Shown piece by piece: positions 22,550 through 61,593 of a stretch of 61,593 nucleotides of DNA; position 1 is the first letter of the stretch, and every line of letters begins with the position of its first letter. Under the pieces are notes generated by a model that saw only the letters and a list, made by a program, of their open reading frames with translations, made no database searches and had not been told where the DNA came from. The DNA comes from Acidobacteriota bacterium (GTDB lineage Bacteria; Acidobacteriota; Aminicenantia; JBFLYD01). The stretch lies in assembly GCA_040756905.1 (NCBI GenBank), contig JBFLYD010000031.1:1-61593 (forward strand), written 5' to 3'. The position numbers and the translations under genes were made by a program.

Positions 22550-23470
22550 CTAACCTCTCAATAATAAATACATTATTGCTTTCTGAACATGCAACCTGTT
22601 TTCAGCCTGATCAAACACAATTGAATTTTTCGAATCTATAACCTCATCGGTTACTTCCTCTCCTCTGTGGGCTGGAAGGCAATGCATAAAATAGGCAGAT
22701 TTTTTTGCCCTTTTAAATAGACCAGAATTTACTTGATAAGGACGAAAAATTCTTTGTCTTGTTTCCTTTTCTTTTTCCTGGCCCATTGAAATCCAGGTAT
22801 CCGTGTAAACTATATCTGCATTCTCTATTGCATTCATCGGATCATTTGTAATTTCAATCTTTAAATTTTTCTTTTTTGTTTCTTTGCTTGAAATTTGAAC
22901 TATTTCTTTTTTGGGTTCATAACCTTTTGGAGTAGCAATTGACATGTTAACTCCAATTTTAACAGCTCCTAAAAGCAATGAATGACACACGTTATTACCA
23001 TCACCAATATAAGCTAATTTAATATCATCAAAAGTTTTCATTTTTTCTTTAATAGTAAAATAGTCTGTCAAAGCTTGACATGGATGCAATAAATCACTCA
23101 ATCCATTAATAACCGGGACATCAGCAAATTTTGCAAGATCTACAACATTTTGATGGTCGAAGGTTCTAATCATTATCAGATCTGCCCATCTCTCCAAGTT
23201 TTTTGCCACATCGTAGATCGATTCCCTCCTTTTTAACTGAATCTCATCTGGACCTAAATAAATTCCATGCCCCCCCATCTGAAATATACCCGTATCAAAC
23301 GTGAATCTTGTTCTGAGAGAAGGTTTCTCAAATATCATGGCAAGAATCTTATCTTTTAATGCATCTCGATATTTTCCAGGATTCTTTTTTACATCTTCAC
23401 TAATCATAAATATTTTCTCTATATCTTCTTCCGATAAATCCCCAATAGAAATCAGATCCTTATCTTTCAT
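22550..23470 (-). CDS. argF: Ornithine carbamoyltransferase
   Basis: The 306-residue protein carries the carbamoyl-phosphate site FEKPSLRTRFTFDTG (S-x-R-T-R), HPCQALTD (HPxQ), and the ornithine-side motifs DTWISMGQE (SMG loop) and HCLPAHRGEEV. The SMG and HCLP motifs favour ornithine over aspartate or acetylornithine as acceptor. It converts carbamoyl phosphate and ornithine to citrulline, or runs backwards with phosphate. Being directly downstream of carbamate kinase suggests the catabolic direction, giving carbamoyl phosphate for ATP formation. No arginine deiminase gene is present. It is the fourth gene of a five-gene operon. Confidence 0.92.
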   Translation of the reverse strand: MKDKDLISIGDLSEEDIEKIFMISEDVKKNPGKYRDALKDKILAMIFEKPSLRTRFTFDTGIFQMGGHGIYLGPDEIQLKRRESIYDVAKNLERWADLIMIRTFDHQNVVDLAKFADVPVINGLSDLLHPCQALTDYFTIKEKMKTFDDIKLAYIGDGNNVCHSLLLGAVKIGVNMSIATPKGYEPKKEIVQISSKETKKKNLKIEITNDPMNAIENADIVYTDTWISMGQEKEKETRQRIFRPYQVNSGLFKRAKKSAYFMHCLPAHRGEEVTDEVIDSKNSIVFDQAENRLHVQKAIMYLLLRG

Positions 23471-23483
23471 CTTTTTATCACCT

Positions 23484-24437
23484 TCATTGAATAATTCTCG
23501 TTCCTGCTCTGTTGATTAAGGAGGCTCGAAGTTTATTTGCAGATGTAATCAAAACTTCCTTACCTCCACCTTCTATAAATTGAATCGCAGCCCTTATTTT
23601 TGGGCCCATCGAGCCCTCTGGAAATTGCCCTTCTTCAAGATACTTCTTGGCTTCGGAGACCCTCATTATATCAATTTCTCTCTGGGTCTCCTTCCCATAA
23701 TCGAGAAAAACTTGATCGATTGAAGTTAAAATAATAAATAAATGAACTCCTACTTCTCTCGCAAGAAGAGATGCCGCATAATCTTTGTCAATCACAGCCT
23801 CCACTCCTTCAAGCATTCCCCTTTTGTTTATGAAAACCGGTATTCCTCCTCCGCCGGCAGAAATAACAATTCTTCCCTCTAAAATAAGACCTCTTATTAT
23901 TCTATGGGGTATTACATCTATTGGCATTGGTGAAGGAACTACTTTTCTCCAGCCTCTCCCTGAATCTTCTACCATAATCCACCTTTTTTCCCTCGCCAGA
24001 ATCTGCGCTCTATAGTGAGTATAGAAAGGGCCTATTGGTTTCGTAGGATTCTTAAAAGCTTCATCATCTCTATCTACTACAACCTGGGTGAGCACTGTTA
24101 CCACTTCCTTATCTATAGATTGTCTTCTCAGCTCGTTTATCAAAGCCTTCTCCAGCATATATCCCATGCTCCCTTCTGTCATTGCACCACAGAGATCCAG
24201 AGTAAAAGGTGGGATTTTATTTGATGCTTCTTCCATCTGGATTAGAATATTCCCGACCTGAGGTCCATTCCCATGAACTATAATAAGTTCATATCCTTTC
24301 TTTACTATTTCAATCATAAGCTTTGCTGCTTTAGTCGAATTTCTCATCTGCTCAATCTGTAATCCTCTCTGGTGAGATGGTAATATAGCATTTCCTCCAA
24401 AAGCAATTAAGGCAATTTTTTGTTTAATCTTCATCAA
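23484..24437 (-). CDS. arcC: Carbamate kinase
   Basis: The 317-residue protein matches carbamate kinase over its length: ALIAFGGNAILPSHQRG (nucleotide loop), VHGNGPQVGNIL, VPSPMPIDVIP, VISAGGGGIPVF and DKDYAASLLAREVG. It transfers phosphate between carbamoyl phosphate and ADP in the cytoplasm, making ATP when run catabolically. It overlaps the upstream GTPase gene by 4 bp and is followed by the ornithine carbamoyltransferase gene. This pairing is the ATP-yielding half of the arginine deiminase or agmatine/purine fermentation routes. Confidence 0.95.
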   Translation of the reverse strand: MMKIKQKIALIAFGGNAILPSHQRGLQIEQMRNSTKAAKLMIEIVKKGYELIIVHGNGPQVGNILIQMEEASNKIPPFTLDLCGAMTEGSMGYMLEKALINELRRQSIDKEVVTVLTQVVVDRDDEAFKNPTKPIGPFYTHYRAQILAREKRWIMVEDSGRGWRKVVPSPMPIDVIPHRIIRGLILEGRIVISAGGGGIPVFINKRGMLEGVEAVIDKDYAASLLAREVGVHLFIILTSIDQVFLDYGKETQREIDIMRVSEAKKYLEEGQFPEGSMGPKIRAAIQFIEGGGKEVLITSANKLRASLINRAGTRIIQ

Positions 24438-25738
24438 AAATCTTTAAGGATTTCTTCAAGAGTCGGGTATCCTATTTCCTGAAGCTCATAATAAACTCTC
24501 ATACTCGGCTTATTTATTTTAATAACTTTCCTTAGATCTATAGGAGTGGCTATTATTACTAAATCTGCCTCGGCGTTATTTATTGTTTCTTCCAGTTCAG
24601 AAATCTGTTTTTCTCCATATCCCATTGCTGGAATCAGATTAGTTATATGGGGATAATTTATAAAAACATCTTTTATCGAACCTGTTGCAAATGGTCTGGG
24701 GTCCACTATCTCTTTAGCTCCATATTTCATAGAAGCCACTATGCCAGCTCCATACCCCATCTCTCCGTGAGTTAATGTGGGACCATCTTCTACTACAATG
24801 ACTCTTTTATTTTTTATTTCTCCATTTCCCTCAACAAAAATAGGAGAGGCAGCTTCAACTATTATAGCTTCAGGGTTTATTTTTCTAATATTTTCTCTTA
24901 GAAGCATTACATTCTCGTTCAGAGCTGTATCAACTTTATTTATAATTATGACATCTGCTCTTCTAAAATTTGTTTCTCCCGGATGGTATTTTAATTCATG
25001 TCCAACTCTGTGAGGATCGCATACAACAATTTCTAAATCACTTTTCAAAAATGGAAAGTCATTGTTACCCCCCTCCCAGAGAATAATCTCTGCTTCTTTT
25101 TCCGCTTCTCTTAATATTTTTTGATAGTCCACACCAGCAAACACAACTGCTCCATTTCTCAAATGAGGCTCATATTCCTCCCTTTCTTCAATTGTACATT
25201 TATACCTGTCAAGATCCTCAAAACTGGAATATCTCTGAAATTCCTGGTCAGACAAATTACCATAAGGCATAGGATGTCTCATTACTACAAGGTTTCTTCC
25301 TTTATCCCTGAGAATCTTGCTGATTCTTCTCGATGTCTGGCTTTTACCACATCCAGTTCTAACCGCACATACTGAAATTACAGGGACTTTACTTTGAAGA
25401 GATGTAAACTTTGGCCCAAGAAAACAAAAATTTGATCCTGCTGCCAAAACTTCAGATGCTTTATGCATTACATACTCATGAGAGACATCGCTGTAAGAAA
25501 AATAAACTTGATCTATATCATATTCTCGAATGAGAGAAACTAAGTGTGACTCAGAGTAAATTGGAATTCCGTCCGGATACATCTTTCCAGCTAGTTCGGG
25601 GGGATATTTTCTTCCCTCTATATCAGGGATTTGAGTTGCGGTGAATGCTACAACTCTGTATTCTGGATTATCTCTGAAATAAACATTAAAATTATGGAAA
25701 TCTCTTCCAGCAGCGCCCATTATCAGAACTTTTTTCAT
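24434..25738 (-). CDS. Cyclic 2,3-diphosphoglycerate synthetase-like P-loop NTPase
   Basis: The 434-residue protein resembles archaeal cyclic 2,3-bisphosphoglycerate synthetase. The N-terminal 140 residues form a Rossmann-like domain (VLIMGAAGRDFHNFN). A P-loop domain follows with VCAVRTGCGKSQTSRRI, LWEGGNNDFPF and INKVDTA (an NKxD-like element). The archaeal enzyme makes the thermoprotectant cDPG with ATP. Bacterial members are untested, and the neighbours here (aminotransferase, carbamate kinase, carbamoyltransferase) suggest a role in amino-acid or carbamoyl-phosphate metabolism. ATG 25738 is chosen over an upstream start at 25807 that would overlap the aminotransferase. It overlaps arcC by 4 bp. 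Confidence 0.75.
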   Translation of the reverse strand: MKKVLIMGAAGRDFHNFNVYFRDNPEYRVVAFTATQIPDIEGRKYPPELAGKMYPDGIPIYSESHLVSLIREYDIDQVYFSYSDVSHEYVMHKASEVLAAGSNFCFLGPKFTSLQSKVPVISVCAVRTGCGKSQTSRRISKILRDKGRNLVVMRHPMPYGNLSDQEFQRYSSFEDLDRYKCTIEEREEYEPHLRNGAVVFAGVDYQKILREAEKEAEIILWEGGNNDFPFLKSDLEIVVCDPHRVGHELKYHPGETNFRRADVIIINKVDTALNENVMLLRENIRKINPEAIIVEAASPIFVEGNGEIKNKRVIVVEDGPTLTHGEMGYGAGIVASMKYGAKEIVDPRPFATGSIKDVFINYPHITNLIPAMGYGEKQISELEETINNAEADLVIIATPIDLRKVIKINKPSMRVYYELQEIGYPTLEEILKDF

Positions 25739-25739
25739 T

Positions 25740-27014
25740 TTACATCGCCTTCGATATAGACTCTTCGATAATATCCAGAGCGTAATCGAGTTCCTCTCTT
25801 TTAACAATTATAGGTGGTATGAATCTAAGAACATTTCCAAAAGTCCCACATCTTATCATCAATAAACCTCTTTCCATGCATTTCTGGAGCAATTTTGTTA
25901 ATACTTCTGGATTTGGTCTTTTCCCATCCATAACAAATTCTATCCCAATCATCAAACCCAATCCTCTTATATCTCCTATTACATCATACTTTTGTTGCAA
26001 GTCGTAAAACCTCTGCTTTGCTATATCTCCCATTGCAATAGCATGATCAAGCAAATTTTCCTCTTGAATGGTTTCAATCGTAGCTAAAGCTGCAGCACAT
26101 GAAACTGGGTTTCCTCCAAACGTTGTTCCATGAGCTCCAGGAGGCCATTTATCCATAATGTCTCTTGGTGCTCCCAACACTGAGAGAGGAAATCCTGATG
26201 CTATTGCCTTAGCAATGGTTATTATATCGGGAACTACTTCAAAATGTTCGGAAGCAAACCACTTGCCAGTTCTACCAACACCTGTCTGGATCTCATCAAA
26301 GATTAACATTATTCCATGCTTTGATGTTAATTCTCTTAATTCTTTCATAAATTTTTTAGGTGGGATTATGTATCCACCTTCTCCTTGAATTGGCTCGATA
26401 AGAATGGCGGCGACTTCATCAGGTGGGATTTGATGAAAGAATAATTCTTCAATCGAATTTATAGAATATCTTATGCATCCTTCTTCATCGGAAAAAGGAG
26501 ACCTAAAGCAATAAGGATAGGGCACTACAAAAACAGAGGGGAGCATTGGAAAATAATGTCTTCTATATTTAATGTTAGAAGTTGTAAAGCTTACTGCTCC
26601 CATTGTCCTTCCATGAAAAGCTCCCTGAAAAACTATGATTCCATGCCTTTTTGTAACATATCTTGCCAACTTAACTGCTCCCTCTATAACCTCTGTTCCT
26701 GCGTTGCTGAAAAAAAATGTATCAATTTTACCAGGAGTTATTTTTCCCAATTCTTCCGCAAGTTTAATGATGGGCTTATAGTAATAATTCCCGCCAGAAT
26801 GGATAAGATTATCTATCTGTCTTTTAGCAGCTTCAACTACTTTAGGTGGCCTGTGTCCAATGTTAAGCACTGCAGTTCCAGAAGTAAAATCAAGATATTT
26901 TCTATCTTCAGAATCCCACACAAAAACTCCCTCTCCTTTAGTTACACAGATATCGTAATCCCAGGTTAAAGCAGGAGTTAAAAATCTCTTCCCCTTTTCT
27001 ATGATGTCGTTCAT
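25740..27014 (-). CDS. Class III PLP aminotransferase (ornithine/4-aminobutyrate type)
   Basis: The 424-residue enzyme is a fold-type I, class III aminotransferase. FFSNAGTEVIEGAVKLAR binds the PLP phosphate, LIFDEIQTGVGRTGKWFA holds the Asp that pairs with the pyridine nitrogen, and IAKAIASGFPLSVLG contains the Schiff-base lysine. Members move the omega-amino group of ornithine, 4-aminobutyrate, lysine or acetylornithine to 2-oxoglutarate. The carbamoyltransferase and carbamate kinase genes in the same operon favour ornithine. It opens the operon, 31 bp after a good promoter, with a TAAGGAGG site. Confidence 0.88.
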   Translation of the reverse strand: MNDIIEKGKRFLTPALTWDYDICVTKGEGVFVWDSEDRKYLDFTSGTAVLNIGHRPPKVVEAAKRQIDNLIHSGGNYYYKPIIKLAEELGKITPGKIDTFFFSNAGTEVIEGAVKLARYVTKRHGIIVFQGAFHGRTMGAVSFTTSNIKYRRHYFPMLPSVFVVPYPYCFRSPFSDEEGCIRYSINSIEELFFHQIPPDEVAAILIEPIQGEGGYIIPPKKFMKELRELTSKHGIMLIFDEIQTGVGRTGKWFASEHFEVVPDIITIAKAIASGFPLSVLGAPRDIMDKWPPGAHGTTFGGNPVSCAAALATIETIQEENLLDHAIAMGDIAKQRFYDLQQKYDVIGDIRGLGLMIGIEFVMDGKRPNPEVLTKLLQKCMERGLLMIRCGTFGNVLRFIPPIIVKREELDYALDIIEESISKAM

Positions 27015-54628: not shown

Positions 54629-55078
54629 TTGAATAATAATAAAGAAGTAAATATTCCAAGGAGATCATTTATTGATTATTTATTAGGAGGAAGCATACTC
54701 GCTCTCATAGCTTCTGTACTGTATCCGACCATTAAATTTATAATGCCTCCAAAGGTACCAGAAGCCTCCCAGAGCAGTGTCAAAGCAGCAAAAGTAGGAG
54801 AGTTAGCGCCGAATTCATACAAGATATTTAGAATGGGAACAAAACCAGGTATTTTGATTCACACAGAGGATGGAAAATTTATAGCGATGTCAGCAGTATG
54901 CACTCATTTAGGCTGTATAATTCAGTACAGACCCGACATGCAGCATGTTTGGTGCGCTTGCCATAATGGTCATTTTGATTTAAATGGAAAGGTTATTTCA
55001 GGTCCCCCGCCCCTTCCCTTGGAGGTTTTTCAAGTTAATATAGTGGGTGATGAAATAATTGTTTCCAAGAAAGGATAG
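54629..55078 (+). CDS. Rieske iron-sulfur protein, module 1
   Basis: The 149-residue protein has an N-terminal PRRSFIDYLLGG (twin-arginine-like) and one membrane helix. The Rieske domain has CTHLGC (C91, H93, C96) and CACHNGHFD (C109, C111, H112). C91, H93, C109 and H112 bind the 2Fe-2S cluster; C96 and C111 form the disulfide. It passes electrons from quinol to the multihaem cytochrome in the bc complex. The start is TTG 54629, fixed by AGGAGG 7 nt upstream. It lies 3 bp before cytochrome b. Confidence 0.92.
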   Translation: MNNNKEVNIPRRSFIDYLLGGSILALIASVLYPTIKFIMPPKVPEASQSSVKAAKVGELAPNSYKIFRMGTKPGILIHTEDGKFIAMSAVCTHLGCIIQYRPDMQHVWCACHNGHFDLNGKVISGPPPLPLEVFQVNIVGDEIIVSKKG

Positions 55079-55081
55079 GCA

Positions 55082-56155
55082 ATGGAGAAAAACTTTCTGT
55101 ATGAGTGGTTTTCAAAAAGAATACCTTTAAAAAATATGATTGAATTTGGAAAAAAGAAGACAGTACCAGTTCATAAATATTCTGTTTGGTATTATTTTGG
55201 AGGCATCTGTCTTTTTCTTTTTGTAGTTCAGGTTTTAACTGGAATAATGCTTCTCCTTTACTACAGGCCAACCGCTGAATCGGCTTTTGAAAGCGTCCAG
55301 TTTATAGTTACCCAAGTCAAATTTGGATGGCTTGTAAGGTCAATTCATAGCTGGGCTGCAAATATCCTAATAGCAGCATCTTTCATTCATATGTTCAGTG
55401 TTTATTTAATGAAATCTTATAGACCGCCAAGGGAGATGACCTGGCTTACAGGTTTTTTTCTGCTTTTAATTTTTTTAGCGTTTGGATTTAGCGGGTATCT
55501 ACTTCCATGGAATGAGCTGGCATTTTTTGCTACCCAGGTGGGAACGAACATGGCTGGGGCAATCCCTTTAGTAGGAGGCTACATAAAAACATTTTTAAGG
55601 GGAGGAGAAGAAGTAACAGGTGCAACCCTTATAAGATTCTTTGGATTCCATGTAGCAGTTCTACCAGGAATCACTACTGTGTTACTTGCAATTCATATCT
55701 ATCTCGTTCAGGTTCATGGTATGAGTGCTCCGATTGGAATTGAAAAGAATAAAATTAAAGAAGAGCCATTTTTCCCAAATTTTATTTTAAAAGATATGGT
55801 TGGATGGTCTTTGGTCTTAACTTTATTGGTATTTCTTTCTGTTTTCTTCCCCTGGGAGATCGGTGTCAAAGCAGACCCCTTTGCCTCTGCGCCTGTTGGA
55901 ATAAAGCCTGAATGGTATTTTATGTTTATGTTCATAACATTGAAATTTATTCCGGGAAAAGTACTCTTTTTTGAAGGTGAAGTCTTGGGTATTTTTGGGT
56001 TTATCTTTGCTGGTATCATCTGGATGTTGCTGCCTTTCTTTGATAAAAAAGCAGCTCAAGAAAAAAGAAGCACCTTTTTTACATTGATAGGAGTTTTTGT
56101 TATCTTATATATTTCTGTAATAACTATTGTAGGATATATGTTGCCTGGAAAATGA
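55082..56155 (+). CDS. Cytochrome b, module 1 (b6 and subunit IV fused)
   Basis: The 357-residue protein has about eight membrane helices. Four histidines bind the two b haems: H89 and H103 in helix B (SIHSWAANILIAASFIH, 14 apart) and H190 and H205 in helix D (15 apart, the b6-type spacing). The quinol-site motif PEWY is at 276-279, in a region like subunit IV. It is therefore a complete and probably working cytochrome b of the b6-like class. It follows the Rieske gene and precedes a nonahaem cytochrome c, which takes the place of cytochrome c1/f. Confidence 0.95.
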   Translation: MEKNFLYEWFSKRIPLKNMIEFGKKKTVPVHKYSVWYYFGGICLFLFVVQVLTGIMLLLYYRPTAESAFESVQFIVTQVKFGWLVRSIHSWAANILIAASFIHMFSVYLMKSYRPPREMTWLTGFFLLLIFLAFGFSGYLLPWNELAFFATQVGTNMAGAIPLVGGYIKTFLRGGEEVTGATLIRFFGFHVAVLPGITTVLLAIHIYLVQVHGMSAPIGIEKNKIKEEPFFPNFILKDMVGWSLVLTLLVFLSVFFPWEIGVKADPFASAPVGIKPEWYFMFMFITLKFIPGKVLFFEGEVLGIFGFIFAGIIWMLLPFFDKKAAQEKRSTFFTLIGVFVILYISVITIVGYMLPGK

Positions 56156-56179
56156 TTAGAATATTCTTAGGAGAATGAA

Positions 56180-57448
56180 ATGGTTATAAATAAAATAAAA
56201 TATTTTCTGATTTTTTTTATCTCTTTTTTTCTAATTTTTATCAATCCCATTCTTCCACAAAAAAAAGATAGTTGTGTAGATTGCCATTCTCAGTTAGAAA
56301 GGAACCTCTCTTTACCTGTAAAAGAGATGGAAGCTGATATACATAGAGAAAGGGGCTTTTCATGTTTTACCTGTCATGGAGGAGATCCTGCATTAGATGA
56401 TGAATCTTCAATGGATGAAAAAAAGGGGTTCTTGGGAAAACTTAACAAAAAAAAGATTTTAAGTTTATGCTCAGGATGTCATTCAAACCCAGATTTTATG
56501 AAAAAGTTTAACCCTTCTCTTAGAGTTGACCAGGCAGAACTCTATGCCTCCAGTCAGCACGGTAAATTGTTAGCTTCAGACGATGATAAAGTAGCTGTTT
56601 GTTCTGATTGCCATAAGCCCCATGGAATTTTACCTTCAAACAACCCAAAATCTTCCATATTTCCTGTTAACGTTCCAGAAACATGCGGAATATGTCATTC
56701 TAACTCCAAATACATGGAAGAATATAAAATTCCTGTTGACCAACTTGATACATTCAGAAAATCAGTTCATGGAGTGGCATTATTCGAAAAGAGAGATTTA
56801 GGAGCCCCTGCTTGTAATGACTGCCATGGAAATCATGGCTCAACCCCTCCTCAGGTTACTTCAGTCGCTAATGTTTGCAGGCAATGCCATGGAAGCGCTG
56901 GAGAACTTTTTTCTGAAAGCCCTCATAAGAAGGCATTTGATGAAATGGGTCTTTCTGAATGTGAAGCTTGTCATGGCAACCATGAAATATCCAAGCCTAC
57001 AGATGAGATGTTGGGGACTGGAGAAGGAGCTGTATGCGTAAAATGTCATGAAGTAAATTCAAGGGGATACAATGTAGCGTTTAAAATGAAACAGTCCATT
57101 GATGAATTGAAGAATAAAGAGAGAAAGGCAAAAGAAATTTTAAGAAAAGCCGAAAAAGCGGGGGTTGAGGTGGGTGAAGCTATTTTTTCATTAAATGATG
57201 TAAATACTTCGATTACAAAGGCCAGAAATTTAATCCACGGTTTGGATATGACAAGAATTGAAGAAACAATTAAAGATGGAAGCGCCATAGCTGACAAAGC
57301 TTATAAGGATGGAGAAAAAGCTATCGAAGAAGCAAGCTTCAGGAGAAAAGGGCTTGGAGTCTCTTTAATATTTATCATTCTATTCATAGTTTCATTGTTG
57401 TATAAAATAAGACAGATCGAGAAAAGAAAGATTCAAAGGGGAAAATGA
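56180..57448 (+). CDS. Nonahaem cytochrome c, module 1
   Basis: The 422-residue protein has an uncleaved or cleavable signal (residues 8-27), nine CxxCH motifs (CVDCH, CFTCH, CSGCH, CSDCH, CGICH, CNDCH, CRQCH, CEACH, CVKCH) and a C-terminal membrane helix (GVSLIFIILFIVSLLY). A helical segment of about 90 residues without haems links them. It should sit in the periplasm, anchored to the membrane, as electron acceptor of the Rieske/b pair in place of cytochrome c1. It is a paralogue of the 59071-60249 gene with the same motif spacing and tail. Confidence 0.9.
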   Translation: MVINKIKYFLIFFISFFLIFINPILPQKKDSCVDCHSQLERNLSLPVKEMEADIHRERGFSCFTCHGGDPALDDESSMDEKKGFLGKLNKKKILSLCSGCHSNPDFMKKFNPSLRVDQAELYASSQHGKLLASDDDKVAVCSDCHKPHGILPSNNPKSSIFPVNVPETCGICHSNSKYMEEYKIPVDQLDTFRKSVHGVALFEKRDLGAPACNDCHGNHGSTPPQVTSVANVCRQCHGSAGELFSESPHKKAFDEMGLSECEACHGNHEISKPTDEMLGTGEGAVCVKCHEVNSRGYNVAFKMKQSIDELKNKERKAKEILRKAEKAGVEVGEAIFSLNDVNTSITKARNLIHGLDMTRIEETIKDGSAIADKAYKDGEKAIEEASFRRKGLGVSLIFIILFIVSLLYKIRQIEKRKIQRGK

Positions 57449-57455
57449 ATCAAAA

Positions 57456-57881
57456 ATGAAAGAAAAAAGGAGAAACTTTCTTGAAATATTAACAAAAGGT
57501 TTTATTACCCTCTGGAGCATGGGAATAATTTGGATTTTATTTTCATACATTAAACCACCGAAAAGAAAGTTTGAAGAAAATTTAATAAAAATAGAAGATA
57601 TTTCTACTATTCCTATTAACGGTTCTTCTATCTATCATTATAAAGATAAATCTGTTATATTAATCAGAAAAGACGAAAGAGAATTTTTAGCGTTTTCTGC
57701 TATATGTACTCACTTAAGATGTATATTGAATTATCAGAAGGAGCGGGAACTCCTGATATGTCCATGTCATGCAGGGATATTTGATTTTAATGGGAATGTA
57801 ATTTCTGGCCCTCCTACAAAATCATTGATGAAATACAGGGTTGATATAAGAGGAAGCAGGCTTTACATCTATTTTGATTGA
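57456..57881 (+). CDS. Rieske iron-sulfur protein, module 2
   Basis: The 141-residue protein repeats the layout of the first Rieske protein: one N-terminal membrane helix (FITLWSMGIIWILFSYI) and a Rieske domain with CTHLRC (C84, H86, C89) and CPCHAGIFD (C102, C104, H105). All six residues of cluster and disulfide are kept, so the cluster should assemble. The N-terminal RRNFLE is a weaker twin-arginine motif than in module 1. It lies 7 bp after the nonahaem gene and 12 bp before the second cytochrome b. Confidence 0.9.
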   Translation: MKEKRRNFLEILTKGFITLWSMGIIWILFSYIKPPKRKFEENLIKIEDISTIPINGSSIYHYKDKSVILIRKDEREFLAFSAICTHLRCILNYQKERELLICPCHAGIFDFNGNVISGPPTKSLMKYRVDIRGSRLYIYFD

Positions 57882-57893
57882 AGGAGAACATAG

Positions 57894-59048
57894 ATGGAAG
57901 AGAATAAGGAAAAAAGGGGGCTCATCTCCTGGCTTGAGAAAAGAATTAATCTATTTGAATTGTTTTCAATAATTAGTTCTTTTGGTCTATTTTACAGTGA
58001 ATTGGATTCAAAAAAGCCATTAAAAGAAGCTGTAAAAGAAGTTCTTGAAAAAAGAGTGCCACCCTATGCAAGGTGGCCTCAGATTCTTGGGATCATAACA
58101 ATTATTCTTTTCTTTTTCCAAGTTTTAACGGGTATACTTCTTGCTTTTTATTATGTTCCTTCCCTAAATGAATCATACAATAGCGTTAAATTTATAATAA
58201 GAGATACACATTTTGGGTGGTTTATTCATCAAATTCATTATTGGGGAAGTAATTTATTGATAATAATATTAATAATTAGAGTGATAAGATTTTATTATCA
58301 TGGGGTGTATAAATCTCCAAGAGAATTATTGTGGATTTTTGGAATTACTCTATTAGTCCTATCTATGGTGCAGGCTTTTTTTGGAAATATCCTTATCATG
58401 GATGAAAATAAATGTTGGTCATCGATCAGGGGCATTGAGATTATTAGGAATATTCCTGGCTTAAATTGGGCATATTTGTTCTTAATGGGCAGCTATGATA
58501 TTAATCAGCAAACAATCATAAGAGCTTACTTTTTTCATATATCCTTATTACCTTTATTATTTCTTATTTTTTTATATTTAAATATTTCTGGGATAAGAAA
58601 GTTAGGGTTAAGTGAAATCCCATGGGAAACAAAAAAAAGAAAAGAAATCCCCTTTTATCCTCATCATTTTTTTAATCTGTTGATTTTGTTATTTATTATA
58701 TTCGGTATATTAGTTACCTTTTCTGTTTTATTTCCAACTCCTTTTTATAAGCCTGTTGACCCTTCATTTACTCCCCCAGGAATACTTCCTGGCTGGTTTT
58801 TTCTTCCCATATATGGTTTTTTTGAATTGTTTTTTAAAATAATTCCCAAATACATTTTAGGTCTTATCAGCGTTATAATATTTTTTCTAATTTTATTCCT
58901 TCCTTTCATTGATAGAAAAGAAGTTAGAATTTTTAAAGAAAGAATAGTCGCAATTTTTATCGGGGCTATCTTTTTGATCATGATTGGGTTGTTTACATTT
59001 TTTGGGGTACATAAAGAAATAAGTATACCATTAAGAAATATTTTTTGA
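57894..59048 (+). CDS. Divergent cytochrome b lacking both ligands of one haem, module 2
   Basis: The 384-residue protein aligns with module 1 through FGW-x3-Q-I-H-x-W (helix B) and the helix-D motif Y-F-F-H. Two ligands are kept, H115 and H215. The partners of the other haem are R129 (His in module 1) and N230 (His in module 1). These two positions bind the same haem, bH, in standard cytochrome b, so that haem should be missing. PEWY is replaced by PGWF (299-302), and the PW after helix C is lost. The N-terminal 55 residues are a hydrophilic extension. A normal Q cycle looks impossible; a single-haem or structural role is inferred. Confidence 0.85.
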   Translation: MEENKEKRGLISWLEKRINLFELFSIISSFGLFYSELDSKKPLKEAVKEVLEKRVPPYARWPQILGIITIILFFFQVLTGILLAFYYVPSLNESYNSVKFIIRDTHFGWFIHQIHYWGSNLLIIILIIRVIRFYYHGVYKSPRELLWIFGITLLVLSMVQAFFGNILIMDENKCWSSIRGIEIIRNIPGLNWAYLFLMGSYDINQQTIIRAYFFHISLLPLLFLIFLYLNISGIRKLGLSEIPWETKKRKEIPFYPHHFFNLLILLFIIFGILVTFSVLFPTPFYKPVDPSFTPPGILPGWFFLPIYGFFELFFKIIPKYILGLISVIIFFLILFLPFIDRKEVRIFKERIVAIFIGAIFLIMIGLFTFFGVHKEISIPLRNIF

Positions 59049-59070
59049 TTAGAACCAATGGAGAAATAAT

Positions 59071-60249
59071 ATGCATACCTTTTTGCTGGCTTCTTTTTTT
59101 GCTATCCAGAATTTTTGTTTAATTTGTCACAGTGACATCAGAGTTCTTTACAACGAAAGCATTCATAACAAAGAAGGCATTGAATGCATAGAATGTCATG
59201 GAGGAAATCCTTTCATTGATAATATTTATGAGGCTCATAGAAAAAATTTTAAAGGAAAGATAAAGCGCGAAGAGATTCCTTCGTTATGTTCAACATGTCA
59301 TTCTGACCCCCAGAAAATGAAACCCTATAACCTTCCCTCGGATCAATACCATCTTTACCTCAATTCACCCCATGGGAAGCTTTTGCAGAAGGGCAATAAA
59401 GATGTGGCAGTTTGTACCGATTGTCATGGCACCCATGATGTTCTATCTTCGGATAATCCCAAAAGCCCAGCCTACATAAAAAATGTTCCAAAAACCTGTG
59501 CAAATTGTCATTCAGATGCTAAATTGAAAAACAAATATAATTTCCCCTCAGATCCTTATAAGGAATATATGGAAAGCATCCATGCAAAATCTCTTTTATT
59601 ACGGGGGAATTTAAGTTCGCCCGAGTGTACTGGATGTCATGGAGCTCATGGCGCTGCTCCTCCAGGATTGGGCGATGTGAATAAAGTATGTGGACATTGT
59701 CATTCTAAGACTCGAGAGTATTTTCTGGAAAGTGCTCATAAACTATCCTTAGAAAAAGTGGATAGTCCCGAATGCTCTCATTGTCATAAAAATCATGATA
59801 TTGAACAGGCAGATATCAATATGTTTGATGGCGTTTGTAAAAATTGCCATTCATCCGATTCCCTTGCCTTTTTAGCAGGACAGAAATTAAAGACTATGTT
59901 TTTGCAATCCCAGCAAGAAATCGATAAGGCAAAAGTGTTGATTGAAAAAGCTGAGAAAATTCCTATAGCAGTAGAAGATTACAAAGCAAGGCTTGAAGAG
60001 GGAATTACTTATTTAATAGAGGCTCAGCCTGTGATGCATACTCTTTTAGAAGAAAAAGTAGAAGATTTAACAAGAAAGTCTCGTTCTATTGGAGAAGAGA
60101 TTCAACTGGAGTTGTATGGAAAATTCGCTCAATTGAGGGTGAGAAAAATAGGTCTGATATTTTTCTGGTTTTATCTTATACTTACTGTGATTTTGATTTA
60201 CCAATATAAAAGATTTTTGATTAAAAAGAGGAATGAGAAAAACATCTGA
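59071..60249 (+). CDS. Nonahaem cytochrome c, module 2
   Basis: The 392-residue protein has nine CxxCH motifs (CLICH, CIECH, CSTCH, CTDCH, CANCH, CTGCH, CGHCH, CSHCH, CKNCH). A helical region and a C-terminal membrane helix (IGLIFFWFYLILTVILIYQY) follow, as in the paralogue at 56180. Its signal is short and lacks basic residues (MHTFLLASFFAIQNFC), so the start may be imperfect, but GGAGAAA lies before ATG 59071. It should take electrons in the periplasm from the second Rieske protein. It overlaps the NapC-like gene by 17 bp. Confidence 0.88.
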   Translation: MHTFLLASFFAIQNFCLICHSDIRVLYNESIHNKEGIECIECHGGNPFIDNIYEAHRKNFKGKIKREEIPSLCSTCHSDPQKMKPYNLPSDQYHLYLNSPHGKLLQKGNKDVAVCTDCHGTHDVLSSDNPKSPAYIKNVPKTCANCHSDAKLKNKYNFPSDPYKEYMESIHAKSLLLRGNLSSPECTGCHGAHGAAPPGLGDVNKVCGHCHSKTREYFLESAHKLSLEKVDSPECSHCHKNHDIEQADINMFDGVCKNCHSSDSLAFLAGQKLKTMFLQSQQEIDKAKVLIEKAEKIPIAVEDYKARLEEGITYLIEAQPVMHTLLEEKVEDLTRKSRSIGEEIQLELYGKFAQLRVRKIGLIFFWFYLILTVILIYQYKRFLIKKRNEKNI

Positions 60250-61483
60250 TAAGATTTTAAGACTAATAAGAGAAAAAAAGTTAAGAGTTTACTCCCTTTA
60301 CACAGCTATTTTATTTGCTCTTGTATTTTTATTTTTTCTCCTTTCAATGCAGGTAACCTCAACGCCTAAATTCTGTGGAACTTGCCATTACATGAAACCT
60401 TATTTTGCATCATGGCAAACCTCATCCCACAATAAAGTTGCCTGCGTAGAATGTCATATTCCTCCGGGTATTACTTCAGAATTTAGAAAAAAATACGAAG
60501 CTTTAGCGATGGTGGCCCGGTATATCACAAGAACTTATAGCACAAACCCATGGGCTGAAGTTGACGATGAGAGCTGTTTAAGATGCCATGAAAAACGGTT
60601 GTTATTCGGAAAGGAAATATTCAGGGGAGTGCTGTTTGATCATGCGCCACATCTTACAGAATTCAGGAAAGGAAAAAAGCTCAGATGCACTTCGTGCCAT
60701 TCCCAGATTGTTCAGGGCCTCCACATAGCTGTAACTGTCTCAACCTGTAATCTTTGTCATTTCAAAAATGAAATATTGGGGGAGGGAAAGAGTAATTGCA
60801 CTTTGTGTCACAGAGTTCCTGAAAAAATTATCACAAAAGGAAATCTCGATTTTAATCATGGTGATGTAGAAAGATTTGGTATGCAATGCTCATGGTGTCA
60901 TTCCCATGTCATTAAAGGTGATGGGGATGTTTTAAGAGATAGATGTTTCACATGTCATAATGAGCCTGTAAGATTATCAAAATTTGAAGATACTGATCTT
61001 CTTCACAAGGTTCATATTACTGAGCACAAAGTGGAATGTCTCAGCTGTCATCTTGAAATTCAACATAAAGCTCAAGAAGAGTTAGAAGTAGCGATGAGTA
61101 GTTGCGAGACTTGTCACAAAACTGGTCATTCTCCTCAAAGAGATCTGTATGTTGGAATCGGAGGAAAGGGAGTCGAACCGACTCCAAGTGTAATGTATTT
61201 AGCAGGGGTTAGATGTGAGGGTTGCCATTTTATCCCTAAAGGAGATGTCCATAAAGCAACAGAGGTAAGCTGCATGGCCTGTCACGGAACTGGCTATTAT
61301 AAAATATATTTAAACTGGAAAGAGATTGTGTCAAAGAGGTTGTCTTTTGTTGAAGGGGAATTTGAGAAAGCTAAAAAATTACTGGAAAGCCAGCCGATCC
61401 CTCAGAGTTTTATCGATGCTGAAAAAAATATAGATTTAGTATCAAGGGGAATTGGAATTCATAATGTGTGCATATTCCGATGA
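60233..61483 (+). CDS. NapC/NrfH-like 12-haem cytochrome c, 3' end cut by an IS
   Basis: The frame of 416 codons has an N-terminal membrane anchor (residues 19-39, then FCGTCHYMKPY). A NapC/NrfH-like tetrahaem head follows, and in all there are twelve CxxCH motifs to residue 360. Proteins of this kind take electrons from quinol and pass them to periplasmic partners. Near residue 405 it reads RGIGIHNV, a motif that in relatives is followed by more helix, but here the next codons CIFR and the stop come from the IS-like terminus that starts at about 61465. The native C-terminus is therefore missing. Whether the shortened protein works is unknown. Confidence 0.85.
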   Translation: MRKTSDKILRLIREKKLRVYSLYTAILFALVFLFFLLSMQVTSTPKFCGTCHYMKPYFASWQTSSHNKVACVECHIPPGITSEFRKKYEALAMVARYITRTYSTNPWAEVDDESCLRCHEKRLLFGKEIFRGVLFDHAPHLTEFRKGKKLRCTSCHSQIVQGLHIAVTVSTCNLCHFKNEILGEGKSNCTLCHRVPEKIITKGNLDFNHGDVERFGMQCSWCHSHVIKGDGDVLRDRCFTCHNEPVRLSKFEDTDLLHKVHITEHKVECLSCHLEIQHKAQEELEVAMSSCETCHKTGHSPQRDLYVGIGGKGVEPTPSVMYLAGVRCEGCHFIPKGDVHKATEVSCMACHGTGYYKIYLNWKEIVSKRLSFVEGEFEKAKKLLESQPIPQSFIDAEKNIDLVSRGIGIHNVCIFR

Positions 61484-61593
61484 ATCTGGCCACTGATTCT
61501 GATTGAAACCGGCCACCTGTCGGAGCGAAGTGACGCTGAATTTTCATTATACCTCAGAGTGGCTGGATTGAGTCAAGGATGACTTTCTTTTCC
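61465..61593. mobile_element. Terminus of an IS21-like element
   Basis: From 61465 the sequence changes to TGTGTGCATATTCC and then holds repeated units: GATGAATCTGGCCAC, GATTGAAACCGGCCAC and, inverted, GTGGCTGGATTGAGTC. Repeated GGCCAC units with GATT-x-AA are the multiple terminal repeats I know from IS21-family ends. The cytochrome gene is broken exactly at its start. No open frame of a transposase lies in the 129 bp visible, and the rest of the element is outside the window. Confidence 0.55.

Follow-up and report, generated by a model that had tools for sequence, protein, structure and literature searches.

In quinone-based energy conservation the pair of stacked b haems is regarded as a fixture, and a cytochrome b gene that has an open frame while both ligand positions of one haem hold residues other than histidine (cytochrome b2) raises the question of whether a Rieske/cytochrome b complex can give up that haem site, and of what such a complex would do. 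The gene lies in the window, the whole stretch of 61,593 nucleotides that was analysed, which is the entire contig C31 of a 2.56 Mb genome in 69 contigs. Here it is part of a head-to-tail series in the order Rieske1-b1-mhcA-Rieske2-b2-mhcB-mhcC (Table 1); the genes are 3-24 bases apart or overlapping, and 54629-61468 is probably a single operon. Elsewhere in the window, the minus strand carries a row of carbamoyltransferase-like, carbamate kinase-like, GTPase-like and aminotransferase-like genes (22550-27014), named from their translations only.

Table 1. Features of the two Rieske/cytochrome b gene sets and of residues in cytochrome b2 (window coordinates).
Feature	Position	Strand	Remarks
Rieske protein 1 of the canonical complex, CTHLGC...CACH	54629..55078	+	Pfam Rieske 1.1e-13; orthologues sit before the HHHH cytochrome b in relatives
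Cytochrome b1, intact comparison protein: H89, H103, H190, H205; PEWY; KD pair	55082..56155	+	
mhcA, 9-CXXCH-type cytochrome c of the canonical complex	56180..57448	+	
Rieske protein 2, CTHLRC...CPCH, RR N-terminus, 4 cluster ligands and both disulfide cysteines	57456..57881	+	conserved in 8/8 orthologues
Cytochrome b2, bH-less cytochrome b, 384 aa, open frame	57894..59048	+	
His115 codon, bL ligand retained (bovine H83)	58236..58238	+	
Arg129 codon AGA, bH ligand position (bovine H97)	58278..58280	+	Arg in 8/8 orthologues, His in 59/59 others
His215 codon, bL ligand retained (bovine H182)	58536..58538	+	
Asn230 codon, second bH ligand position (bovine H196; R. capsulatus H212)	58581..58583	+	clade: Asn 3, His 4, masked 1
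Asn261-Leu262 codons where the Qi-site Lys/Asp pair is expected (bovine K227/D228)	58674..58679	+	acid gone in 8/8; PMC5001787
PGWF replacing PEWY, Qo motif, P299-G-W-F302	58788..58799	+	Glu missing in 8/8
mhcB, 9-CXXCH cytochrome c, C-terminal membrane anchor	59071..60249	+	
mhcC, NapC/NirT-type N-terminus and multihaem domains, first 12 of 18 haem motifs, interrupted	60233..61468	+	
IS21-like element end inside mhcC, terminal TGCATATTCCGAT, apparent 6-bp target duplication AATGTG	61469..61593	.	

Cytochrome b2 matches the Pfam families Cytochrome_B (PF00033, E 2.7e-33) and Cytochrom_B_C (PF00032), both above cut-off, and its closest solved relatives in the PDB are b6 and bc1 cytochromes b; together these place a four-helix haem domain at the N-terminus and a Qo domain at the C-terminus. 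The haem-binding stretches align gapless with b6, with cytochrome b1 of the window and with bovine cytochrome b. The four ligands and the KD pair in bovine numbering are consistent with the gapless alignment to solved b6 (for the ligands) and to b1. As the sequence-only reading had proposed, H115 and H215 correspond to the bL histidines (bovine H83/H182) and R129 and N230 fall on the bH histidine positions (bovine H97/H196), with PGWF in place of PEWY; the codons at 115, 129, 215 and 230 (CAT, AGA, CAT and AAT) agree. Cytochrome b2 thus reads H-R-H-N at the positions where two bis-His b haems take four histidines. An AlphaFold model built from three sequences was too poor for use (pLDDT 45.7). 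A sequencing error at Arg129 was considered and rejected, because arginine occurs in eight independent genomes and AGA is more than one step away from any His codon.

A search of whole genomes, covering one phylum, identified six genomes encoding close relatives of cytochrome b2 at E 1e-79 to 1e-99, followed by a sharp drop to 1e-53. One further orthologue, L042, came from a separate collection by a contig scan with single-sequence patterns, a method of low sensitivity, giving a clade of eight with the window sequence. These orthologues are 33-54% identical pairwise, form a monophyletic group with support of 100 in two trees, and are spread over five classes of the phylum, in addition to L042, whose group is not given. 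The clade is rare (7 of the ~490 genomes searched in the phylum), and a second sampling of the phylum returned identical members. No relative of cytochrome b2 was found among viral contigs.

Within this clade, position 129 is arginine in all eight members, whereas the 59 other cytochromes b that the alignment holds from this phylum all have histidine there and are HHHH at the four ligand positions, indicating that R129 is neither chance nor a peculiarity of the window sequence. Position 230 is asparagine in the window, L043 and L045, histidine in L042, L044, L047 and L048, and masked in L046. The bH ligand of helix B is therefore lost clade-wide and that of helix D in part of the clade. Asn230 requires at least three changes on the tree. 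The helix-B change from His to Arg happened once, at the base of the clade, and the helix-D change from His to Asn is most simply placed later, as a repeated event. The expectation that both substituted residues would be conserved among orthologues thus holds for Arg129 and breaks down for Asn230, and the proposed joint loss of both ligands gives way to losses that were not simultaneous, since Arg129 is ancestral to the clade. Arginine followed by asparagine is the order that would be expected if the second ligand had lost its purpose.

A substitute for the bH ligand was sought in the transmembrane part of the eight orthologues, where no further conserved His, Met, Lys or Cys was found; the only columns with one of these residues in at least six of the eight rows are H115 and H215. 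H112 and H136, the histidines whose presence at the bH ligand positions would have overturned the sequence-only reading, were rejected as alternative ligands, neither being conserved among the eight. There is likewise no cysteine of the b6f haem ci type on helix A of cytochrome b2, and no cysteine is conserved clade-wide. A protein with a single b haem is therefore supported in part: the bL site is kept, bH coordination is lost and no other conserved ligand is present, while its origin in a joint loss is not supported.

The surroundings of the ligands differ between the two faces of the membrane. Contacts of the bL, bH, Qo and Qi pockets other than the axial ligands are assigned by bovine numbering and are presumptive. 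On the inner side, the Qi Lys/Asp pair is Asn/Leu-like in the clade, with the acid replaced by Leu or Ile in 8/8 sequences against Asp or Glu in 58 of the 59 others, so that a Qi site with a protonable pair of the Lys/Asp type is missing; in Rhodobacter capsulatus, double mutants of the corresponding K251/D252 are non-functional in vivo (PMC5001787). The helix-C glycine on the bH side (bovine G116) is relaxed to G/S/A/T, compared with Gly in 59/59 others, and the inner-face N-terminus of the clade has both an insertion and new residues that are conserved across its members. The helix-A glycine (bovine G34) and the bL-side glycines (bovine G48 and G130) are kept in 8/8. The bL pocket is itself altered, as the equivalent of bovine R80 is lost in 7/8 and that of Y131 is Arg, Lys or Asn, and bL function is therefore not certain.

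The outer half of cytochrome b2 appears, by these residues, to have been remodelled and not lost. The Glu of PEWY is replaced by Pro, Gly or Ala in 8/8; PGWF is confined to the window sequence, most of the clade reads PPWY, and PAWY and MPWY also occur. HHHH cytochromes b encoded near other Rieske proteins in clade-host genomes (L134, L136 and L139) read APWY. The change of PEWY, which the sequence-only reading had counted as part of the haem loss, is accordingly not diagnostic of it, because paralogues with all four histidines in the same genomes can share it. Near Qo, R179 and E182 of cytochrome b2 (58428-58439) are a newly clade-invariant Arg and Glu, and Glu182 might substitute for the lost PEWY Glu.

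The genes around cytochrome b2 recur with it. In every clade genome, to the contig limit, the order is Rieske protein, bH-less cytochrome b, 9-haem mhcB and 18-haem mhcC; the mhcC N-terminus is of NapC/NirT type across the clade, and the two Cys and two His that ligate the Rieske cluster are intact in 8/8. Canonical sets in relatives consist of a 17-haem NapC-type cytochrome, a Rieske protein, an HHHH cytochrome b and a 9-haem cytochrome, and an HHHH paralogue occurs in seven of the eight clade hosts, the window genome among them; in G453, no canonical HHHH cytochrome b was found. The canonical complex therefore has the same four kinds of subunit as the b2 module, but it retains the four haem-b histidines, PEWY and a Qi pair of the Lys/Asp type, and its b and 9-haem subunits fall in separate groups from those of the module. 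mhcA and mhcB are homologous, and the 9-haem subunits split into two groups with modest support (92/88) in a tree whose row L116_A is a wrongly chosen ORF. This split is consistent with duplication of the entire module. A further locus of the window genome, L119 (G000:C60, 3-2481), encodes a 16-haem cytochrome of NapC type next to a membrane protein resembling cytochrome b561 and is likely another quinol-to-multihaem route. The altered cytochrome b recurs in relatives together with an otherwise intact and conserved four-gene set, and the group thus has the look of a genuine lineage of complexes that dispense with the standard proton-pumping Q cycle.

We give about an even chance to the reading that cytochrome b2 serves as membrane subunit in a conserved Rieske2-b2-mhcB-mhcC complex lacking the inner-face branch of the Q cycle, which would act as a non-bifurcating quinol:multihaem-cytochrome c oxidoreductase on the outer face only. 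Menaquinol would be oxidised at the Qo-like site and both electrons would exit on the outer face, the first by way of the Rieske cluster and the second by way of bL, from which it could either move on to a haem of mhcC or, as a second step, return to the Rieske cluster, both electrons ending in the multihaem chain. Such a reaction would follow a linear course without being electrogenic across the membrane, and would therefore experience no back-pressure from the proton-motive force. The b2 complex would then serve acceptors for which the driving force is too small for the co-resident canonical b1 complex. We speculate that this freedom from back-pressure at low driving force is the benefit of the b2 complex, and that the cell turns to the canonical complex when energy is more plentiful. 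Published work provides precedent for parts of this scheme. The R. capsulatus H212N mutant, which carries the substitution seen at N230, is a bH knockout in which bL is still reducible and there is no functional connection to Qi (PMC4807273, PMC4330944). Given an intact Rieske protein, linear flow is considered possible in principle for an enzyme that lacks bH ligands (PMC10715153), and a b6 mutant lacking one bH ligand partly sustains photosynthetic electron flow (as cited in PMC10715153).

Counting against an emptied bH site, four of the eight orthologues retain His230, and position 230 holds only His or Asn, tighter than expected. Together with the strict conservation of Arg129, this restriction suggests that the bH site retains some role despite the loss of its ligand. 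One unlikely form of that role is a haem still bound there, five-coordinate through His230 where it is present, with Arg129 holding a propionate or water; such a haem would be high-spin and somewhat like haem ci of b6f. The four retained histidines, the invariant arginine and the helix-A glycine kept throughout all agree with it, and haem ci works at the same face without an axial ligand from the protein (PMC9162462). However, the three members with Asn230, the window sequence included, are left with no plausible ligand, the G116 equivalent is relaxed, the Qi Lys/Asp pair is lost, and H212N has been described as a bH knockout.

The direction and routing of electrons could also differ from the linear oxidation of quinol that we favour. 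Flow in reverse, in which electrons from an outside donor enter through mhcC and mhcB and quinone is reduced at the Qo-like site, is improbable. A one-sided chain with many c haems fits either direction, and the canonical paralogue is still present for quinol oxidation, but no sequence feature that sets the direction was found, and quinol oxidation is what the families of the Rieske protein, of cytochrome b and of the NapC-type domain are best known for. We attach an equally low probability to a one-sided bifurcation, in which quinol would be split at Qo, one electron taking the Rieske cluster while bL hands the low-potential one to the NapC-type haem in the 18-haem mhcC. Both branches would then finish at the outer face, so that strongly reducing electrons would be released outside the membrane.

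The window genome shows one sign of damage to the module. mhcC is split at 61469 by a repeated IS21-like end, present in ~20 near-identical copies in the genome, and the remainder of mhcC, with six more haem motifs, continues on contig G000:C9 from about base 115, behind the other end of the element. A copy of AATGTG on either side of the insertion is an apparent target duplication, and the two ends have matching terminal repeats. Many contigs of this genome end in near-identical copies, which are probably the reason for the breaks between contigs. The insertion in mhcC seems recent and may not be fixed; as it cuts mhcC, the b2 complex could be impaired in this genome. Adjoining the mhcC remainder and convergent with it, L111 (G000:C9, 627-5420, minus strand) encodes a 12-haem cytochrome c, a Tat-type molybdopterin oxidoreductase-like protein, an NrfD-like membrane protein and an FeS protein, a cluster that is a possible acceptor system for the b2 module.

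Decay of the b2 complex, or a purely structural role comparable to that in acidophilic Acetobacteraceae, would accommodate this insertion and has a published precedent for the loss of bH ligands (PMC10715153), yet we assign it a very low probability. In the precedent, the Rieske protein is degraded or absent, whereas the cluster ligands are intact in all eight members here; five classes share the gene order, the open frame and the haem counts of 9 and 18 at ~40% identity, the module stands alone elsewhere, and the insertion itself seems to be of recent date. A plain pseudogene was accordingly rejected for cytochrome b2, though not for mhcC in this genome, and the earlier judgement that the open frame argues against random decay is upheld by a frame under selection. 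Other genomes carry the b2 module by itself, which weakens the suggestion that the protein is a structural partner for the intact one. A b2-b1 heterodimer, in which the bL electron crosses the bL-bL bridge to b1 for the Qi work, would suit the adjoining gene sets of the window genome, probably one operon, and the bL-bL transfer measured in bc1 (PMC4330944), but is highly improbable: wherever the contigs of other clade genomes permit the check, the b2 module and the canonical set lie apart, and G453 shows no canonical b1.

The b2 complex appears to use the parts of a Rieske/cytochrome b enzyme while departing from two of its defining features, the two bis-His b haems and the Qi pair. A search of the largely open-access literature found no conserved bH-less clade with an intact Rieske protein and dedicated multihaem partners. 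If the preferred reading is true, it would suggest that cells keep energy-conserving and non-conserving versions of one complex side by side, and Qo turnover without inward electron transfer from bL would become directly testable.

Several known systems share parts of this arrangement. The bc-type cluster GSU2930-2937 of Geobacter, compared by description only, likewise encodes a Rieske protein and cytochrome b with several multihaem c-type cytochromes, but its partners carry 2, 10, 12 and 5 haems, and the portion of the account consulted reports no loss of bH ligands (PMC2825233). Rieske/cytochrome b complexes of anammox bacteria also combine multihaem c subunits with proposed non-standard electron routes; these complexes gain a proposed extra b haem and send electrons to the inside, whereas the b2 module loses its inside branch (PMC12954380). 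The 'deranged' bc1 of Acidiphilium and Acidocella resembles b2 in its natural loss of bH histidines, but it is encoded in a petABC operon, has also lost the Rieske ligands or gene, and is read as non-functional (PMC10715153). In those acidophilic Acetobacteraceae, loss of bH ligands always comes with Rieske damage, which prevents linear flow there (PMC10715153); this combined loss is not seen in the b2 clade. R. capsulatus H212N shares with b2 both the substitution at N230 and the remaining bL, but it is a laboratory mutant of a two-haem enzyme, impaired in function and without arginine at the other ligand position (PMC4807273, PMC4330944). The b2 complex would, if our reading is true, be a natural counterpart of this bH knockout that retains its Rieske protein, bL and dedicated cytochromes.
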